Source: Leptolyngbya ohadii IS1
Lineage (GTDB): Bacteria > Cyanobacteriota > Cyanobacteriia > Elainellales > Elainellaceae
DNA length: 64,000 nucleotides
Reading direction: 5' to 3'
Assembly (NCBI RefSeq): GCF_002215035.1
Contig: NZ_NKFP01000006.1
Location: forward strand, 2,819,080-2,883,079
The number at the start of each line of letters is the position of its first letter. Positions within the stretch are counted from its first letter, which is position 1. Position numbers and translations under genes: made by a program. The notes below the pieces were generated by a model. That model did no database searches, was not told the DNA's origin, and worked only from the letters and a program-made list of their open reading frames with translations. Below, one piece after another: positions 48,647 to 57,883 of the stretch.

Positions 48647-49126
48647 TCAGGCGATCGGCTGAGACGTGAGAACGAGCCGCAGTCTGGCATGAATTAAACT
48701 CAGCTGTGCCAGCCCCAAATCCAGATCCCCCTCCAGAACAACGCCCGTATTCATGAGGCGATCGAGCAGTTCCAGAATGGTGGGCTTGGCAGAGGTTGCA
48801 CCAGGATAGTAGCCGTTCTTAGGCAACAGCGTGCCAATTTCCCCTAGATCGATGTTGAGGTCAGCCGGATCGATTTCAAAGATTTCGCAGAGCTGCACCA
48901 CCTGTTCTTCCAGCTTCCGCAAACTTTCTGCTGCCCGCTCTAGTTCGGTTTCGCTTAGCTGATCGGTTTCCATGCGGCGAATTACCTGTGCTTCCATTAA
49001 TTGACGAATTAGCTCAATCAGAGTGAGCAGCAGCGGAGCCAGTCCCGCATTTGCTTTCTTGACGGGCTGGGCAGGAAGCGTATCAGCCGATTGGACGGTG
49101 AGCTGGGCAGAATTGGCAGTTAGCAT
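48647..49126 (-). CDS. gvpK: Gas vesicle protein GvpK
   Basis: The 159-residue protein matches GvpK: GLAPLLLTLIELIRQLMEAQ VIRRME, then LSETELERAAESLRKLEEQV, FEIDPADLNIDLGEIGTLLP and the late LDRLMNTGVVLEGDLDLGLAQLSLI, which resembles the amphipathic segment of GvpA-type proteins. GvpK is one of the essential accessory proteins, but its role is not defined. It is 17 bases from gvpJ, hence in the same transcript. A 226-base gap with a GAACCCAAATCG duplication separates it from gvpF. Confidence 0.94.
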   Translation of the reverse strand: MLTANSAQLTVQSADTLPAQPVKKANAGLAPLLLTLIELIRQLMEAQVIRRMETDQLSETELERAAESLRKLEEQVVQLCEIFEIDPADLNIDLGEIGTLLPKNGYYPGATSAKPTILELLDRLMNTGVVLEGDLDLGLAQLSLIHARLRLVLTSQPIA

Positions 49127-49143: not shown

Positions 49144-49503
49144 CTAGAACTGAGCTGCTTTGAGCGATCGCAATTCCTGCTCCAGACTCTCAATTCGGCT
49201 CTGAAGCTGTTGATTTGCTTGAAGCAACTGCTGGGACTGATGCTGGGCTTGAGCGTTGAGAAAGGGATTATTTTCCCACCAGTTGATGCCCATCTCCTTT
49301 GCCTTATCGACCGAAGAGATGAGCAAACGAATCCGAATATTCAGCAGTTCGGTTGCGCCCACGGAAACGGTAATGTCTCCGGCAATCACAACCCCCTTGT
49401 CTAAAACTCGTTCCAGAACATCCGCCAAACTTGATCCGGACGTCGCACTTTGGAACTGACGATTCGTGGGGGCAATCGATTGGGGGTTGGTAGCCAGGGT
49501 CAT
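49144..49503 (-). CDS. gvpJ: Gas vesicle protein GvpJ (GvpA-family minor protein)
   Basis: The central part ([40 protein letters not shown]) is homologous to GvpA, and a polar N-terminus and a Gln-rich helical C-terminus ([20 protein letters not shown]) are added. That design is GvpJ, a minor component thought to act at the conical tips or in nucleation. The ATG overlaps the gvpN stop by four bases (ATGA), indicating translational coupling. Confidence 0.93.
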
Positions 49504-50687
49504 GCTAAATCGTCCTCCGCTGGGTCAGAAATATTCAGCAGCTTAATCAGCGATTCGTGAACGGATTCGGGAGACGAGTTGATCGTTGACATGTCTAAAT
49601 CCGGTTCCTGTTCGGATTCCAGATCGGTTTCATCGGCGGATTTAATCAGGTCGCTCAATCCTTCAGATTCGCCGTCTAGCTCCAGTTCGTCGATCGGTTC
49701 AAACGCTGAATCAAAGGCTGTGTCGGCTGGCAGTTCAACCTTCATGCGAGGAATCAGACGCGACGGGGGCATAAAGCTCGCCGTTTCCTGCTGCATAGCT
49801 TGAAGCGCAGTCTGCTCATTAAAGACATCGTTTAGCAGTTTCGCTGCCGTCTCCAGGGGAATGCCCGCTCGCGATAGCAGAATATCTTGACAGACTTCAC
49901 GGAAATCTGGGTTTTCAGGCGCAACGAGAACATCATGTTCCTGACAAATCTTTGCCAGAATTAAGCCCGATCGCAGCCCGGAGGATTTCTCGGCTCCTGT
50001 TTTCTGGCGGAATGTCCGGACAATCTGAATGATGAGTTCGGCACTGTCGCGATCGAGGTTGGTCTTCTGAACCACAATTTCCCGCTGGGTGGATTCATCC
50101 GGCTCCGGCATATCGATCGTAATGAGGCGATCGAGTAGCGCATCCTGGGTGGCATGAACCCCGCAATATTCCTCTGGATTCGAGGTAAAAATGGCGCGAA
50201 ATTCCGAATGAACCCGAATATAGTCACTGCGACCGTGGCTCGGCGGCAGCACCAGCAGCTTCTCCTCCAGAGCAGACAGCAGCACGTTGTTGACCTCTGG
50301 ACGAGAGCGATTGAACTCATCGTAGACCAGCGTAAATCCTTCCCGGCAAGCCAGCGTCAGCCGCGAGTCTACCCAGTTTTGCCGCAGTTCGTCCTCGACT
50401 TTCACCACGCTATGGATAAAGTTATCTACTACCTTTTTGCGCGTATAGCCGGACTGATTGCCGATCAGGTCAGAGGTTTTGAACTCGTCGTCACCAAACA
50501 ACAGCATGATCGGGCGCGACAGCAGATCCGCTAAATGCAGGGCGAGGGTGGTTTTTCCGGTTCCGGCAGGTCCACGTAAATGCACCGAGAAGCCGGACTG
50601 AAGATAGCGCAGGGCGCGCATGGCAACCCGCTCCACACTGGGCGTACTGACAAAACGACGGGGGCTAGCTCGAAGAACTGTAGTCAC
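49500..50687 (-). CDS. gvpN: Gas vesicle protein GvpN (AAA+ ATPase) with acidic tail
   Basis: GvpN is a MoxR-like AAA+ ATPase needed for normal gas vesicle growth. Walker A is GPAGTGKT (residues 39-46), Walker B lies in [20 protein letters not shown], and the sensor region has [36 protein letters not shown]. The core ends near residue 320. A further about 75 residues are strongly acidic ([20 protein letters not shown] and on to DPAEDDLA), an extension beyond the ATPase core. The start is GTG at 50687 with AAGGA upstream. The stop overlaps the gvpJ start. Confidence 0.95.
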
Positions 50688-50738: not shown

Positions 50739-51749
50739 CTATTGAACGATGTAGGTATTGTCACGCTGGGTAATGCAGCCTTTCTTAATTAGGGCGCGAA
50801 GCGCATCCACGGCAGCGAATCGATTAATCCCAAACTTGGATTGAATTTCAACCAGGGTTGCTTTCTGAACCCGCTGAAGATGATCAAAGATGGTTTGCTC
50901 CAGAGGGCTGAGCTTAGGCTGCACGGGTAAAGCAATGCGGGCGGGTGCGATCGGCGCAGGTGCAGTCACGGCGACTGAAGAATTGCCCTTAGCAGCGGGT
51001 TGCAGCCTGGTTTGCGAAATCTTCGCTGGCGAGACTCTTGCCTGGGAAACCCTGGTCTGTGGAATTGCTTTCAGTTTGGGTGGCTGGGAGGATTTTGCGG
51101 AATTTGTTTTCGTCGCAGTCTGGACGATCGGCATAGAGGTTCCCCACACCTGTTCCCGCAGCTTTGCACAGAACGCCATTCGCTCCGATCGAAGTTCGGC
51201 AAGCTGGGTATAGAGCCGATTCAGTTCGGCGTTGCGCTGCTCGCTATCCTGCTGGAGCATTTGCTGTATCTGCATGTGGTTTTGCTGACGCGCCTGGTAG
51301 CTGGATTCTAGGAGGAGCTGGGTTTCTGCCTGAAGGGTTTCAATTTGCTCTCGGATGTCCTGCCGCAGGGCGAAAACTGTAGCGTTTAGGTTGAGGTGAA
51401 AGTCGTCGAGGCTTTGCCAGAGTTCCTGTGCCATTGCAGCTCGATCGGATGCCGTTAGTGCCAGGGAATTGGCAACCTCTTCGTTGAGCGATCGTGTAAA
51501 AGCTTGAAGGCGCTGCATTAGCAGGGTAGCTTCGATTTGGCGCTGGGCTGAGAGATCGGCAATGAGGCTCTGGGTATCCTGCTGGAGCTGATGCTGAAAG
51601 GTTTGAAGTTCGTACCGCAGGTCATTTGCCTGCATCTGCCGCGCCTGGGAAAACTGCTCTAGCGTAGTGCGAACCTGCTGCTGGCGGTGCAGCATTTCCT
51701 GCTGACGGTGCTGGCGTTGGGCTTGCCAGGTTTCTTTGAGAGAAGTCAC
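50739..51749 (-). CDS. gvpC: Gas vesicle outer-wall protein GvpC with C-terminal winged-helix-like extension (336 aa)
   Basis: GvpC binds the outside of the GvpA shell and strengthens it. At least three exact 33-residue repeats are visible (about residues 22-54, 55-87, 88-120) and a fourth weaker one at 121-153. The start is GTG at 51749: an AAGGAGG with five-base spacing precedes it, and the resulting VTSLKETWQAQRQ resembles GvpC N-termini; a longer frame from 51848 would run through the gvpA-gvpC hairpin. After about residue 205 a basic Ser/Thr/Pro-rich linker (KISQTRLQPAAKGNSSVAV) leads to residues 280-336, LSPLEQTIFDHLQRVQKATL ... FGINRFAAVDALRALIKKGC, which looks like a winged helix-turn-helix. 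Classical cyanobacterial GvpC lacks such a domain. Confidence 0.88.
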   Translation of the reverse strand: MTSLKETWQAQRQHRQQEMLHRQQQVRTTLEQFSQARQMQANDLRYELQTFQHQLQQDTQSLIADLSAQRQIEATLLMQRLQAFTRSLNEEVANSLALTASDRAAMAQELWQSLDDFHLNLNATVFALRQDIREQIETLQAETQLLLESSYQARQQNHMQIQQMLQQDSEQRNAELNRLYTQLAELRSERMAFCAKLREQVWGTSMPIVQTATKTNSAKSSQPPKLKAIPQTRVSQARVSPAKISQTRLQPAAKGNSSVAVTAPAPIAPARIALPVQPKLSPLEQTIFDHLQRVQKATLVEIQSKFGINRFAAVDALRALIKKGCITQRDNTYIVQ

Positions 51750-51819
51750 AAAATCCTCCTTCGGGGCAGTACGAGTCAGAAATGCGGGATGCAGGAAAGC
51801 AATGCGGGATGTGGGGTAA

Positions 51820-51881: not shown

Positions 51882-52100
51882 TTAGTTTGCGGGAACAGCT
51901 GCCTGAGCAGTCAGACCCACAGCTTCTGCATACTTCAGGTAGGTTTCAACCGAAGCGATTACCACACGAGCCTCGATCGCCAGCAGCTCGATACCGACCA
52001 GGGAAACGCGCACCCAAGCGTCAACAACAATGCCTTTGTCGAGAATGCGATCGACGACTTCAGCCAAGCTCGAAGAAGAGTTCACTTTTTCAACTGCCAT
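51882..52100 (-). CDS. gvpA: Gas vesicle structural protein GvpA
   Basis: GvpA is the small hydrophobic protein that forms the ribs of the gas vesicle shell. The 72-residue product is almost identical in pattern to known cyanobacterial Gvp[61 protein letters not shown]. The two beta strands around the VSLVGIELL turn and the flanking helices are intact. AGGTGG precedes the ATG. Only one copy is present, while some cyanobacteria carry several. It is the first gene of the operon. Confidence 0.97.
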
Positions 52101-52575
52101 AGCAATCCACCTAATATGTGTGAATAGGGTTGTACAACGGTCTTGTTACTCAGCCACTAATTGAATGAGTGACTGTAGGATTAACTGTGCTAATAACTGC
52201 TCTGCTTTCGTGAGCCGCGTGATGCGATGTTCGTTTAAGCGCGGTCAGTTAATTCACAGTTATCACCATAAGAAATTGATGCTCTAACGTTCATCGTATA
52301 AACACTGAAAAACTGAAAATACTACGGAGAAAAAGCTAGTAAGATCACCAGAAATCAGTCGTTGCAATATGCGTCCTTCGATCGTCCGGAAAACCCTTAA
52401 AAAACTTAATAAATAGAAATAAAATGCCTCAGCAAAAAGTATTGGATAAAGACCATGATTCTCCAATCCAATACTTTGAAATTTGTTAATTAGTAGAATT
52501 TGATAGATCTTACAATTCAGTCGATCAATTCTGCGGATTTTCTACTTTGATCTAAACCTGAAAGCTGACCTCAAA
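52101..52575 (-). promoter_or_regulatory. Upstream region of gvpA
   Basis: A perfect 10-bp palindrome GTTGTACAAC lies at 52129-52138, 30 bases upstream of the gvpA start and so inside its leader or promoter. I cannot assign a -35/-10 pair with confidence. The region is AT-rich and also has to drive the plus-strand gene at 52576. No other gene is seen in it. Confidence 0.4.
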
Positions 52576-52991: not shown

Positions 52992-53249
52992 TTACTGATG
53001 GACACGCTTTTCAAACTGTTCGCGGGTGGTTTCAAGAAGGGCGATCGCTTCTTGATAAACCTCACTGTGGCTCTGCTGAAGCCAGCCTAATAGACTTACC
53101 ATCTGAGCATTGCGAAGTTCAAGATCGGCTTGAAAAATAGTAGCAGTTGCCATGTGCTGGGCATATTCTGCGGGGTGTCCCTGGGCGACAAAATTGGCGA
53201 TCAAAAATTGTAGGGCTTGCTGACGGGCATCGATGTTTTGTTCAAGCAT
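52992..53249 (-). CDS. Small helical protein downstream of the Cdc48-like ATPase (85 aa)
   Basis: No family is recognised. The protein appears all-helical: IDARQQALQFLIANFVAQGH, AEYAQHMATATIFQADLELR, QMVSLLGWLQQSHSEVYQEA and IALLETTREQFEKRVHQ. It is neither a signal-peptide protein nor membrane-spanning. It starts 27 bases after the stop of the AAA+ gene on the same strand, so both probably form a two-gene unit, and it could be an adaptor or substrate of that ATPase. A relation to small gas vesicle proteins such as GvpV cannot be shown from sequence alone. Confidence 0.6.
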   Translation of the reverse strand: MLEQNIDARQQALQFLIANFVAQGHPAEYAQHMATATIFQADLELRNAQMVSLLGWLQQSHSEVYQEAIALLETTREQFEKRVHQ

Positions 53250-53276: not shown

Positions 53277-55103
53277 TTAACGCTGGCGTTGGCTAATAAT
53301 CAAATCGTAGGCAGATGCGAATTCGGTTTCGGTGATGCGAATGGTGGTGGGATCGGAGTGTCCCTGCGATCGATGGCGGCGAATTGCTTCTAGTGCAGCC
53401 TGATTGCTAAGGAGTGCCAGATCTGCTCCGTTCCAGCCTTCGGTTTGGGTCGCCCAGTTCTCTAGATCGACGTTTTCTAGAGGGCGATCGGCATTGTGAA
53501 CCTGAAGAATGGAAAGACGGCTCTGGGGATCGGGCAGATCGATTTTGATTTGCAGGTCAAACCGTCCGGCGCGGAGCATGGCAGGATCGAGGGCATCGGG
53601 TCGGTTGGTTGCGCCAATTAGCAGCACGTTGGGGCATCCCTGCAAGCCGTCCAGCTCGGTTAGGAGTTGACCCACGACGCGATCGCTCACGCCAGAATCG
53701 CCGGAAAACTTGCCCCTGGCGGGAACCAATGTATCAATTTCATCCACGAACACTACACAGGGAGCCGCTTGACGAGCCTTGGTAAACAGATCGCGCACGG
53801 CTTGTTCGGCAGCACCAACCCATTTACTGAGGAGTTCGGGTCCGTTGACCGCAATGAAGTTTGCTCTTGCCTGCGCTGCGACTGCCTTTGCCAGGAGAGT
53901 TTTCCCGGTTCCAGGCGGTCCCCAGAGGAGAATGCCGCGTGGTGCTTTGGCTCCCGTTTGTTGGTAGAGTTCCGGGTAGAGCAGTGCCCCTTCTACGGAT
54001 TCCTGGAGGGTTTGCTTCACCGATTCCAGTCCGCCGATCTCTTCCCAGCCAATCTGCGGCGACTCGATTTCCACCGATCGCAGCACGGAAGGCTTGATTG
54101 CCTTAATCGCCTGAAGAAAATCCTCCTGGGAGACGGTCAGCACGTCGGGAATTTCTGCTTTGAGGCTGGGAACCTGACGACGCAGGGCGCTGTATGCCGC
54201 CTTCTGACAAATTGCCTTCAGATCTGCGCCCACCATTCCCACGGCAAGATCGGCGATCGCATTCAGATCCACCGATGCCTCCAGGGGCATGGCGCGAGTG
54301 AGGATTTTCAGGATTTCCAGCCGACCTTCCCGATCGGGGACGCGGAACTGCACTTCGCGATCGAATCTGCCGGGGCGACGCAGTGCCGGATCAAGGTGGT
54401 CGGGGCGATTTGTTGCTGCTAGTACGATCACGCCTTTGGTTTTGGCAAAGCCATCCATCAAGCTCAGGAGTTGCGCGACAAGCCGTTTTTCCACCTCCCC
54501 TTCGACCTTGCTGCGATCAGGGGCGAGGCTGTCAATTTCGTCGATAAACACCAGACAGGGAGATGACTTGCCCGCTTTCTCGAACAGGCTCCGCAGCCGG
54601 GATTCTGCTTCACCGTAATATTTGCCCATGACTTCGGGACCAACGATCGCGATATAGCTGACCCCCAGTTCGTCCGCCAGGGCACGGGCAGTCAGAGTTT
54701 TTCCGGTTCCCGGTGGTCCCACGAGCAGCACCCCTTTAGGCGGCTCCAGTCCCAATCTCTCCAGCAAATCAGGTCGCTTCAGGGGAATTTCCACCATTTC
54801 CCGCAGCTCTTGCAGGACTTCTCCTAAGCCACCCACATCGGTTAGGGATGGGGCATCGGTCGAGCTGGAGTCGATCGGTTCTTCGCCAGAAGTCGGAGCA
54901 TCACTGGAATTCCCTGGCGCGGGATTGCGTTTAATGCGGCTCGTACCAATATCCGTACGGGGAATACTGCCCTGACGGGGAATACTGCTGAGCGGGCGCG
55001 CATTCACCTGCACATCCGTCTTGATTTCGCCGTTCTCGATTTTTTCTTCCAGGACTTTGGCAAGTTCTAAAAGCTGCTCGAAGCCCTTAAACAGTTCGCT
55101 CAT
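53277..55103 (-). CDS. Cdc48/p97-like AAA+ ATPase with two ATPase modules (608 aa)
   Basis: The protein has two AAA+ modules. D1 has Walker A GPPGTGKTLTARALA (129-136 core) and Walker B CLVFIDEIDSLAP with an arginine-finger region ALRRPGRFDREVQFRVPDRE; D2 has GPPGTGKTLLAKAVA and CVVFVDEIDTLVP, then AMLRAGRFDLQIKIDLPD. This resembles p97/VAT, which unfolds proteins or dismantles complexes. The N domain of p97 is missing; instead about 90 residues carry a helix (LFKGFEQLLELAKVLEEKIE) and a Ser/Pro-rich stretch. Substrate specificity is therefore likely different. It lies next to gas vesicle genes and opposite an ArsA-like ATPase, a combination that suggests a chaperone role in this cluster (inference). 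Confidence 0.9.
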   Translation of the reverse strand: MSELFKGFEQLLELAKVLEEKIENGEIKTDVQVNARPLSSIPRQGSIPRTDIGTSRIKRNPAPGNSSDAPTSGEEPIDSSSTDAPSLTDVGGLGEVLQELREMVEIPLKRPDLLERLGLEPPKGVLLVGPPGTGKTLTARALADELGVSYIAIVGPEVMGKYYGEAESRLRSLFEKAGKSSPCLVFIDEIDSLAPDRSKVEGEVEKRLVAQLLSLMDGFAKTKGVIVLAATNRPDHLDPALRRPGRFDREVQFRVPDREGRLEILKILTRAMPLEASVDLNAIADLAVGMVGADLKAICQKAAYSALRRQVPSLKAEIPDVLTVSQEDFLQAIKAIKPSVLRSVEIESPQIGWEEIGGLESVKQTLQESVEGALLYPELYQQTGAKAPRGILLWGPPGTGKTLLAKAVAAQARANFIAVNGPELLSKWVGAAEQAVRDLFTKARQAAPCVVFVDEIDTLVPARGKFSGDSGVSDRVVGQLLTELDGLQGCPNVLLIGATNRPDALDPAMLRAGRFDLQIKIDLPDPQSRLSILQVHNADRPLENVDLENWATQTEGWNGADLALLSNQAALEAIRRHRSQGHSDPTTIRITETEFASAYDLIISQRQR

Positions 55104-55278: not shown

Positions 55279-57159
55279 ATGCTGCACTATTTTGATTCGC
55301 TGCGTCTGGTTCTGGTGAGCGGGAAGGGCGGAGTGGGAAAAACCACCTTTTCCTGTGGGTTTGCGCGACGGTGGGCGCGTCAGTTTCCCGATGAGCGGGT
55401 GTTGCTGCTGTCTACCGATCCGGCGCATTCGTTGGGGGATGTGCTGCAAATGGCGGTAGGCGATCGATCAGAATCAGTGAGTGATTTACCGAATCTTCAA
55501 GTGCGGGCACTGGATGCGGAAAAACTGCTGCAAGCCTTCAAAGAGAAATACGGCAGCGTTCTGGAATTGCTGGTGGAGCGAGGCAGCTTTGTCCAGGGGG
55601 AAGACCTGTCTCCGGTGTGGAATTTGAGCTGGCCCGGAGTGGATGAGCTGATGGGCATCCTGGAGATTCAGCGGCTTTTGCGCGAACAGGTCGCCGATCG
55701 TGTGGTCGTGGATATGGCTCCCAGCGGTCACACCCTGAATCTGTTTAGCCTGATGGACTTCCTGGATAACCTGCTAGCAGCGATGGGGCTGTTTCAACAG
55801 AAGCACCGCTGTATGGCGCAGACCTTTGGCGGAGCGTATCAAGACGATGAAGCCGATCGCTTTTTGCAGGAAATGCAGGCAGATTTAATGGGCGGACGAC
55901 AGCTTTTACAGAATCCAGAGGTGACAGGCTGCGCGATCGTCGCAATTCCAGAACCGATGAGCTACCTGGAAACCTATCGCTTTGTGCAGGCATTACAGCC
56001 GCTCAAGATGCCGATCGGCGGGATTATTGTAAACCGAATTTCCCATCCCTCTCAGGAGTCGCAGGAGCTTCTAGAGAAATTTATTACGCTTGCTGAACCC
56101 TATCCGGTTCTTAGGATTCCCGTTCAGGATCAGGAGCCGATCGGGGGGATGGCGCTGGATCATTTAATGTCTCTGGTCAAAAAAGCTGATCCGATCGCGG
56201 TTAACGTTCTTCCCAGTGAATCGATCGCCCTACCCGAAAAACTCTTACCGAGCTTTAGTGATTTTATTGCAGAAGGCAGACGGCTCATTCTAGTTGGTGG
56301 AAAAGGGGGAGTGGGAAAAACCACGATTTCGGCGGCGATTGCCTGGGGCATGGCGGCAAAACATCCCGATCGGAAGGTTCGCGTCATTTCGATCGATCCG
56401 GCTCATTCTTTGGGAGATGCCCTTGAGACAACGCTAGGACATGAGCCGATGATGCTGACGGAGAATTTGTCGGCACAGGAAATTAATGCCCATCGGGTAC
56501 TCGATCGATTCCGGGAGGAATATCTGTGGGAATTGGCGGACATGATGAGCGGGGATACGGGAGATGATTCGCTGAAGATTGCTTACGGTCCGGAGGCATG
56601 GCGGCAAATCGTCAGCCAAGCTTTGCCCGGAATCGATGAAATGCTGTCGCTGCTGACGGTGATGGAACAGCTAGAGCAGGGTGAACAGGATTTAATTATT
56701 CTCGATACCGCTCCGACTGGACATCTGCTGCGATTTCTGGAAATGCCGACCGCTCTGGGCGACTGGCTCACCTGGATTTTCAAGCTCTGGATTAAGTACC
56801 AGAACATTGCCGGACATACGGAACTGATGGGACGACTCCGCAATTTGCGGCAGCGGGTGATGCAGGCACAAAAACAGCTTAAAAACCCGAACTACACAGA
56901 ATTTATCGGCGTGGTACAGTCACAGCAGGCGATCGTGGCAGAAGCAGAACGGCTGACCCAATCCCTCCTGGAGAAGGGTGTTTCCCAGCGCTATATTGTC
57001 CATAATCGATGTGAAGTGGGGCAGTCGCTTCCGGCAGAAACTTTTCGGGAACAAACGATCGTGCATCTACGTCCCCTAGCACGGGGTAATAGACCCTCTG
57101 CCCAAATTTCTACCCAGATTTCTGCTCAAATTCAGGCGGCTGCGAGTCTTCTGTTTTAG
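55279..57159 (+). CDS. Tandem ArsA/Get3-like ATPase (626 aa)
   Basis: Two homologous halves each have a deviant Walker A motif, GKGGVGKT at 15-22 and 341-348, followed by LLLSTDPAHSLGDVLQ and VRVISIDPAHSLGDALE, and a switch II-like DMAPSGHTLNLF and DTAPTGHLLRFL. This is the fold of ArsA (arsenite pump ATPase) and of Get3/TRC40, which target tail-anchored membrane proteins. The arsenite-binding cysteines and the Get3 CxxC zinc site are not seen, and no arsB or other ars gene is near. A role in handling hydrophobic proteins is more likely than metal resistance. The gene is divergent from the Cdc48-like gene with a 175-bp gap between them. Confidence 0.9.
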   Translation: MLHYFDSLRLVLVSGKGGVGKTTFSCGFARRWARQFPDERVLLLSTDPAHSLGDVLQMAVGDRSESVSDLPNLQVRALDAEKLLQAFKEKYGSVLELLVERGSFVQGEDLSPVWNLSWPGVDELMGILEIQRLLREQVADRVVVDMAPSGHTLNLFSLMDFLDNLLAAMGLFQQKHRCMAQTFGGAYQDDEADRFLQEMQADLMGGRQLLQNPEVTGCAIVAIPEPMSYLETYRFVQALQPLKMPIGGIIVNRISHPSQESQELLEKFITLAEPYPVLRIPVQDQEPIGGMALDHLMSLVKKADPIAVNVLPSESIALPEKLLPSFSDFIAEGRRLILVGGKGGVGKTTISAAIAWGMAAKHPDRKVRVISIDPAHSLGDALETTLGHEPMMLTENLSAQEINAHRVLDRFREEYLWELADMMSGDTGDDSLKIAYGPEAWRQIVSQALPGIDEMLSLLTVMEQLEQGEQDLIILDTAPTGHLLRFLEMPTALGDWLTWIFKLWIKYQNIAGHTELMGRLRNLRQRVMQAQKQLKNPNYTEFIGVVQSQQAIVAEAERLTQSLLEKGVSQRYIVHNRCEVGQSLPAETFREQTIVHLRPLARGNRPSAQISTQISAQIQAAASLLF

Positions 57160-57220: not shown

Positions 57221-57883
57221 ATGGCGATCGGACTGGGATTCGGATTTTTCTTTGGCAACTATTACGATTATTACGACGACTTTTTTGATTTTCCCTTCAG
57301 ACCTATTAATGATGATGTCATTATCGGTACGGATGGCAATGATGACATTGAGGGAACCAGCAGTGATGACGAAATTTACGGTCGTGAAAGGGATGACGTA
57401 ATTGATGGTCGAAGCGGCGACGATGAACTGTACGGTGAAGATGACGAGGATGAATTAATCGGCGGCAGCGGGGATGATCTGCTGGTAGGTGGCGAGGATG
57501 ATGACGATCTGCTGGGCGGCACAGGAAACGATCGCTTAGATGGCGGTAGCGGCAACGATCGGTTGCGGGGCGAGGAGGATAACGATCGGCTGTTTGGCGG
57601 TAGCGGCAGAGATCGGCTAGATGGCGGTACAGGGCGAGATACGCTCACAGGCGGCAGCGGGGATGATATTTTTGTCGTGCGGCGACGAGGCGGAATCGAT
57701 CGCATCACGGACTTTGTAAATGGCGAGGATAAAATTGGCTTGGATGATGGTTTGCGCTTCCGCGACTTAGACATTATCTCGCGAGGGAATAACACCTTGA
57801 TTCGGGCAGGTCGCGATCCGTTGGCGACTCTGGTTGGCGTTGCGGCGAATACGATTAACGGCAGGGATTTTACGATCGTTTGA
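57221..57883 (+). CDS. RTX-type calcium-binding repeat protein (220 aa)
   Basis: Residues 30-145 are glycine/aspartate-rich nonapeptide repeats of the GGxGxDxLx type (GGSGDDLLVGGEDDDDLLGG, GGTGNDRLDGGSGNDRL). They fold into a calcium-bound parallel beta roll. The start MAIGLGFGFFFGNYYDYYDD is aromatic and not a Sec signal. The C-terminal 70 residues (GIDRITDFVNGEDKIGLDDG ... IIRAGRDPLATLV) are typical of RTX ends recognised by type I secretion. The expected result is an extracellular protein. The N-terminus and the small size leave function open. A strong AAGGGGGAG precedes the start. The second half of the repeats is unusually Asp/Arg-rich. Confidence 0.85.
   Translation: MAIGLGFGFFFGNYYDYYDDFFDFPFRPINDDVIIGTDGNDDIEGTSSDDEIYGRERDDVIDGRSGDDELYGEDDEDELIGGSGDDLLVGGEDDDDLLGGTGNDRLDGGSGNDRLRGEEDNDRLFGGSGRDRLDGGTGRDTLTGGSGDDIFVVRRRGGIDRITDFVNGEDKIGLDDGLRFRDLDIISRGNNTLIRAGRDPLATLVGVAANTINGRDFTIV

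Follow-up and report, generated by a model that had tools for sequence, protein, structure and literature searches.

A predicted winged-helix domain that ends cyanobacterial GvpC and GvpN may be a docking part of the gas-vesicle machinery

The window analysed in this study is a stretch of 64,000 nt from Leptolyngbya ohadii IS1 (assembly GCF_002215035.1, contig NZ_NKFP01000006.1, positions 2,819,080-2,883,079 of the forward strand). Its minus strand carries a cluster of gas-vesicle genes, in the order gvpA, gvpC, and gvpN, then gvpJ, gvpK, gvpF, and gvpG. The genes and signals around gvpC, in window coordinates, are as follows.

51882..52100, minus strand: gvpA, the shell protein
51755..51761, minus strand: Shine-Dalgarno-like AAGGAGG of gvpC, 5 nt upstream of the GTG, from the sequence
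50739..51749, minus strand: gvpC, 336 aa, GTG start, between gvpA and gvpN
49500..50687, minus strand: gvpN, an AAA+ ATPase (TIGR02640, E 1.8e-118), without the winged helix in this genome

Further along the cluster, GvpK (48647-49126, minus strand) ends in a GvpA-like segment (PF00741), an ordinary extension since the relatives looked at carry the same one. The cluster is flanked by genes for an 85-aa protein (52992-53249, minus strand), a CDC48-like double AAA protein (53277-55103, minus strand), and an ArsA-like double ATPase (55279-57159, plus strand); these three have relatives in 23-29 of 80 gvp loci and are possible gas-vesicle accessories. An RTX calcium-binding repeat protein (57221-57883, plus strand) is also encoded nearby.

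GvpC itself is composed of a repeat region, a linker, and a C-terminal head.

51399..51695, minus strand: three 33-residue GvpC repeats, residues 19-117, by lag-33 score
50913..51137, minus strand: linker, residues 205-279, net charge +11, fast-evolving
50742..50912, minus strand: winged-helix domain, residues 280-336 (AlphaFold2 pLDDT 89.6; GvpC homologues in 55 of 80 loci)
50784..50822, minus strand: helix 3, residues 310-322, by DSSP on the AlphaFold2 model
50745..50774, minus strand: wing strands, residues 326-335, in the AlphaFold2 model

The 33-residue repeats of a shell protein, as named in a preliminary description of this DNA, are a real periodicity, with a lag-33 self-similarity that was reached by none of 2000 shuffles. 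The units lie at residues 19-51, 52-84, and 85-117, and all three have R at position 19 and F at position 33 in register. The repeats are degenerate, and TIGR02641 matched the protein over profile positions 2-33 of 33 with 16.3 bits (cut-off 18.8). The classical GvpC of Anabaena flos-aquae and Calothrix has in common with the window both the 33-residue repeats and the gene position between gvpA and gvpN; the classical protein is not known to have a winged-helix tail. The linker is rich in Pro, Ala, and Ser. It had been described as a basic linker of about 75 residues, which is correct for the window (+11), but its charge is not conserved across homologues (mean +2.9, range -12 to +13).

The head lies in GvpC exactly where it had been placed, with the codons of residues 280-336 at 50912-50742 of the minus strand. 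The preliminary description had also raised a frameshift, by which the segment would be a separate gene. However, gvpC is a single open frame with the segment inside it, and the sister locus L001 shows the identical architecture, intact. A separate gene or a frameshift product is therefore ruled out by the one intact frame, by the conservation in the sister genome, and by the low dN of the domain given below.

The head was modelled by AlphaFold2 with pLDDT 89.6 and pTM 0.73, based on a 46-row alignment of the window and 45 homologues. The predicted elements (H9-21, E23-25, H26-33, H37-49, E53-56, and E59-62) give the order H1-S1-H2-H3-S2-S3, which is that of a winged helix with three helices and a two-stranded wing. 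Structure prediction thus agrees, with confidence, with the helix-turn-helix-wing pattern and with the small winged-helix domain, tethered by a linker to shell-binding repeats, that had been proposed earlier. In DNA-binding winged helices, helix 3 is the recognition helix; residue 310 (R) is invariant among GvpC copies. Among PDB structures, the model matched the winged helices of ZitR, CadC, MarR, Zalpha, and ESCRT-II with Z of 9.7-11.3. Foldseek matched nothing more specific than generic winged helices, and since both DNA-binding and protein-binding ones are among them, the fold comparison cannot choose between roles. A sequence search against solved structures gave no significant match (best E 0.03).

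When the window segment alone was compared with Pfam, all matches were below threshold, with winged-helix regulators at the top (TrmB 0.0019, MarR 0.0039). TrmB (PF01978) scored 18.4 bits with the window copy, below the gathering cut-off of 25.6, and 28.5 bits with a copy found on the GvpN of locus L069; it matched 40 of 46 GvpC homologues (E 0.01 or better) and 28 of 41 GvpN copies. The domain thus has its fold in common with the TrmB and MarR regulators, along with weak-to-moderate sequence similarity, but it is a C-terminal appendix of Gvp proteins and not part of a regulator. That GvpC terminates in a genuine TrmB/MarR-like winged-helix domain is well supported by these models and profile matches.

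The domain is not confined to GvpC. With the 57-residue query, it was found in 26 of 36 genomes of the order, frequently as two copies about 1.2 kb apart, the second of which forms the end of GvpN, the AAA+ ATPase whose gene adjoins gvpC. By single-sequence phmmer, the window domain matched GvpN tails with E 4e-10 (L051) and 2e-9 (L018 and L069), and comparison of the GvpC-domain and GvpN-domain profiles by hhalign gave a probability of 99.9% and E 8e-35. The GvpN copy was also modelled as a winged helix (pLDDT 86.6), and the linkers ahead of it are strongly acidic (mean net charge -10.5). Among 80 cyanobacterial loci with gvpN, both proteins carry the domain in 46, GvpC only in nine, GvpN only in nine, and neither in 16, so that each of the two proteins ends in it at 55 of the 80 loci. 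Strict co-occurrence of the two domains is unsupported by these counts (both in 46 vs a single one in 18 of the 80 loci). Every GvpC copy scored higher with the GvpC profile and every GvpN copy with the GvpN profile, the profiles sharing members with the tested set, and a tree of the short domain sequences needed four GvpC/GvpN label changes vs about 37 in shuffles. Judged from these sequences, the two domains are apparently a pair of old paralogous lines.

A segment of this kind has been noticed before in Planktothrix. According to the available part of Pancrace et al. 2017 (PMC5259702), benthic strains have GvpC40 and planktic strains have a shorter GvpC, and a 28-aa stretch at the C-terminus of GvpC40 is 64% identical to Planktothrix GvpN. 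Like the window protein, two GvpC proteins presented there, Planktothrix GvpC40 from benthic strains and the 40.5 kDa GvpC of Geitlerinema PCC 7407, are long and have a conserved segment C-terminal to their repeats. The conserved C-terminus of GvpC40 is the same protein region as the winged helix, and that part of the article gives no fold or function for it. In contrast with that report, the present analysis follows the domain through many cyanobacterial families, on GvpN as well as on GvpC; at locus L058 (Planktothrix PCC 11201), it is on both GvpC and GvpN. No description of a winged helix common to GvpC and GvpN was found in the open literature, most subscription journals being outside the search. 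The earlier claim that no known GvpC extends far beyond the repeats is therefore wrong for much of the phylum, as the search of GvpC homologues for the extension (55 of 80 gvp loci) and the available account of Planktothrix GvpC40 (PMC5259702) both show, and the rarity that it implied gives way to a widespread domain that is also on GvpN. With 26 of 36 genomes of the order and 55 of 80 GvpC loci, an oddity of one genome is excluded. In the gas-vesicle system of cyanobacteria, the head is a conserved domain of as yet unassigned function.

In the window and its sister L001, the domain is on GvpC only, and a search of the window genome found no second copy, one copy being the total. There are ten such GvpC-only cases (the window, L001, L002, L008, L012, L013, L015, L017, L020, and L031). 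Their GvpN has another tail, with an APQ.RVIP-like motif after the AAA core that is often preceded by AMQQE.

49749-49799, minus strand: alternative GvpN tail motif in the window

A strict pattern for this motif is present in eight of the ten GvpC-only cases and in none of the 71 loci outside this group; the tails of L001 and the window are close variants. By sequence, it looks as if two alternative GvpN tails exist. The window GvpC head deviates at 7 of 25 family-conserved positions, for example with T298, Q303, A312, and N331 in place of the family residues R, E, Q, and R. These departures would fit an interface that relaxed once the copy on GvpN had been lost; GvpC heads did show more changes at loci with such a loss, but the excess was not significant (p 0.06, uncorrected for kinship). 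A mirror-tree test of the GvpC and GvpN domains gave a partial r of 0.19 (n = 19; 69 of 999 permutations reached this value), which is suggestive only of co-evolution.

To follow the domain across the phylum, 386 genomes were sampled, and those above the TIGR02640 cut-off were counted as gvpN-positive. All 26 carriers in the photosynthetic class were among the 56 gvpN-positive genomes. The other 24 domain matches were weak (E 1e-6 to 1e-3) and were all outside this class; the single one inspected, L137, resembles a DtxR/MntR-type regulator. Within the photosynthetic-class sample, the occurrence of the domain is restricted to gvp systems. No viral or plasmid relatives of it were found.

The domain has been lost repeatedly. 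In Arthrospira PCC 9108, there is a truncated and out-of-frame remnant of the GvpC domain (L043 5564-5881), and in Planktothrix rubescens PCC 7821, the gvpC copies stop before the domain (L055 3541-5883). In the Nostocales loci fetched, the GvpC beside gvpN is without it, which indicates loss in most Nostocales. Losses are therefore recurrent, in several lineages including planktonic ones. Together with the seven off-family positions of the window copy, these lost and decayed copies could be taken to mean that the domain is a relic that serves no important purpose in GvpC and is disappearing. However, this is very improbable, since dN was low in the domain in 11 of 11 gvpC gene pairs (0.00-0.21 vs 0.08-1.04 in the linker), including the window vs L001 (0.21 in the domain vs 0.87 in the linker). 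Purifying selection on the domain is strong, and the linker drifts.

The preliminary description proposed that the head binds nucleic acid. If so, GvpC heads would anchor vesicles on DNA or RNA or signal assembly to the transcription of gvp genes; vesicles would then be physically tied to DNA or RNA, or assembly would feed back on gene expression via a shell protein. That the nearest sequence families, TrmB and MarR, are DNA-binding regulators (with TrmB matching most GvpC and GvpN copies, as above) argues for such a putative role and against protein docking. The charge of the domain can be read in both directions. The domain is dipolar, with about -2 on helices 1-2 and about +3 on helix 3 and the wing; the latter part is basic in both proteins (mean +3.5 in GvpC copies and +2.3 in GvpN copies), and R at alignment positions 37, 45, 56, and 58 is 89-100% conserved in GvpC copies, which would suit binding to nucleic acid. 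However, the family mean of the net charge is 0.0 in GvpC and -1.2 in GvpN, the charge of the GvpC linker is not conserved, and the GvpN linkers are acidic, all of which speaks for docking to a protein and against nucleic acid. The presence of the same head type on the ATPase GvpN is also against the latter. Upstream of gvpA, there is one candidate site.

52436-52477: inverted repeat upstream of gvpA, two perfectly matching 12-nt arms around an 18-nt spacer

The arm of this dyad (the arm was searched, not the full dyad) was found in 1 of 170 fetched loci. A conserved operator upstream of gvpA is therefore rejected, the arm of the sole perfect dyad being in one locus, and this too counts against nucleic-acid binding. 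On balance, a nucleic-acid role is possible but is a weaker reading than protein docking, and it is rated as unlikely to quite unlikely.

Protein docking, to which about an even chance is given, would make the head a reused TrmB/MarR-like winged helix that docks GvpN or a partner shared with it. In favour of this putative role, one domain type ends two adjacent gvp products, GvpC and GvpN, which suggests a docking module shared within the flotation machinery and not an isolated DNA-binding curiosity. The restriction to gvp systems within the photosynthetic-class sample, the low dN, and the dipolar charge also count in favour. One possible scheme is that the GvpC repeats lie on the ribs of the shell and that the flexible linker holds the head out from it. 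The head would then bind GvpN, or a partner common to GvpC and GvpN, and this binding may bring the ATPase to the growing shell or time the deposition of GvpC. Without GvpN, vesicles remain bicones and do not elongate (PMC11445434). A strict head-to-head pairing of GvpC and GvpN is not general because in nine loci and in the window the domain is retained on GvpC and absent from GvpN. Where GvpN has no domain of its own, as here, the head would have to dock elsewhere, on a different region of GvpN, on a second GvpC head, or on some other Gvp protein.

The C-terminal part of GvpC in Halobacterium is a binding site for GvpN and GvpO and also mediates the self-association of GvpC (PMC9372576), GvpO being described as Haloarchaea-specific. 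As a GvpC end at which GvpN and GvpO dock, this part is a functional analogy to the cyanobacterial head, not a proof of docking. By the same analogy, dimerisation of halobacterial GvpC via its C-terminal part (PMC9372576) would be consistent with self-association, in which GvpC heads pair along the cage or between neighbouring vesicles and so form a GvpC network or bundle the vesicles; with its own copy of the domain, GvpN could enter this network or break it. Genomes with the domain on GvpC only, including the window, need no GvpN copy for such pairing, and since the head is dipolar, head-to-tail contacts are allowed. Nine loci carry the GvpN copy only, which counts against it, and self-association is considered unlikely.

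Two questions of gas-vesicle assembly are how GvpN finds the growing shell and what times the deposition of GvpC, and a compact, conserved domain common to the coat protein and the assembly ATPase offers a handle for deletion, swapping, and use as bait. If GvpC is pictured after the short protein of Anabaena, a part retained by many cyanobacteria is missed. For vesicle engineering, the head marks a natural site for C-terminal fusion.

The domain was also seen on two short GvpC-like proteins, one of 204 aa (L126 1492-2106, minus strand), encoded directly after gvpA and several kb from gvpN, and one of 269 aa (L127 1381-2190, minus strand). They could be a second type of GvpC.
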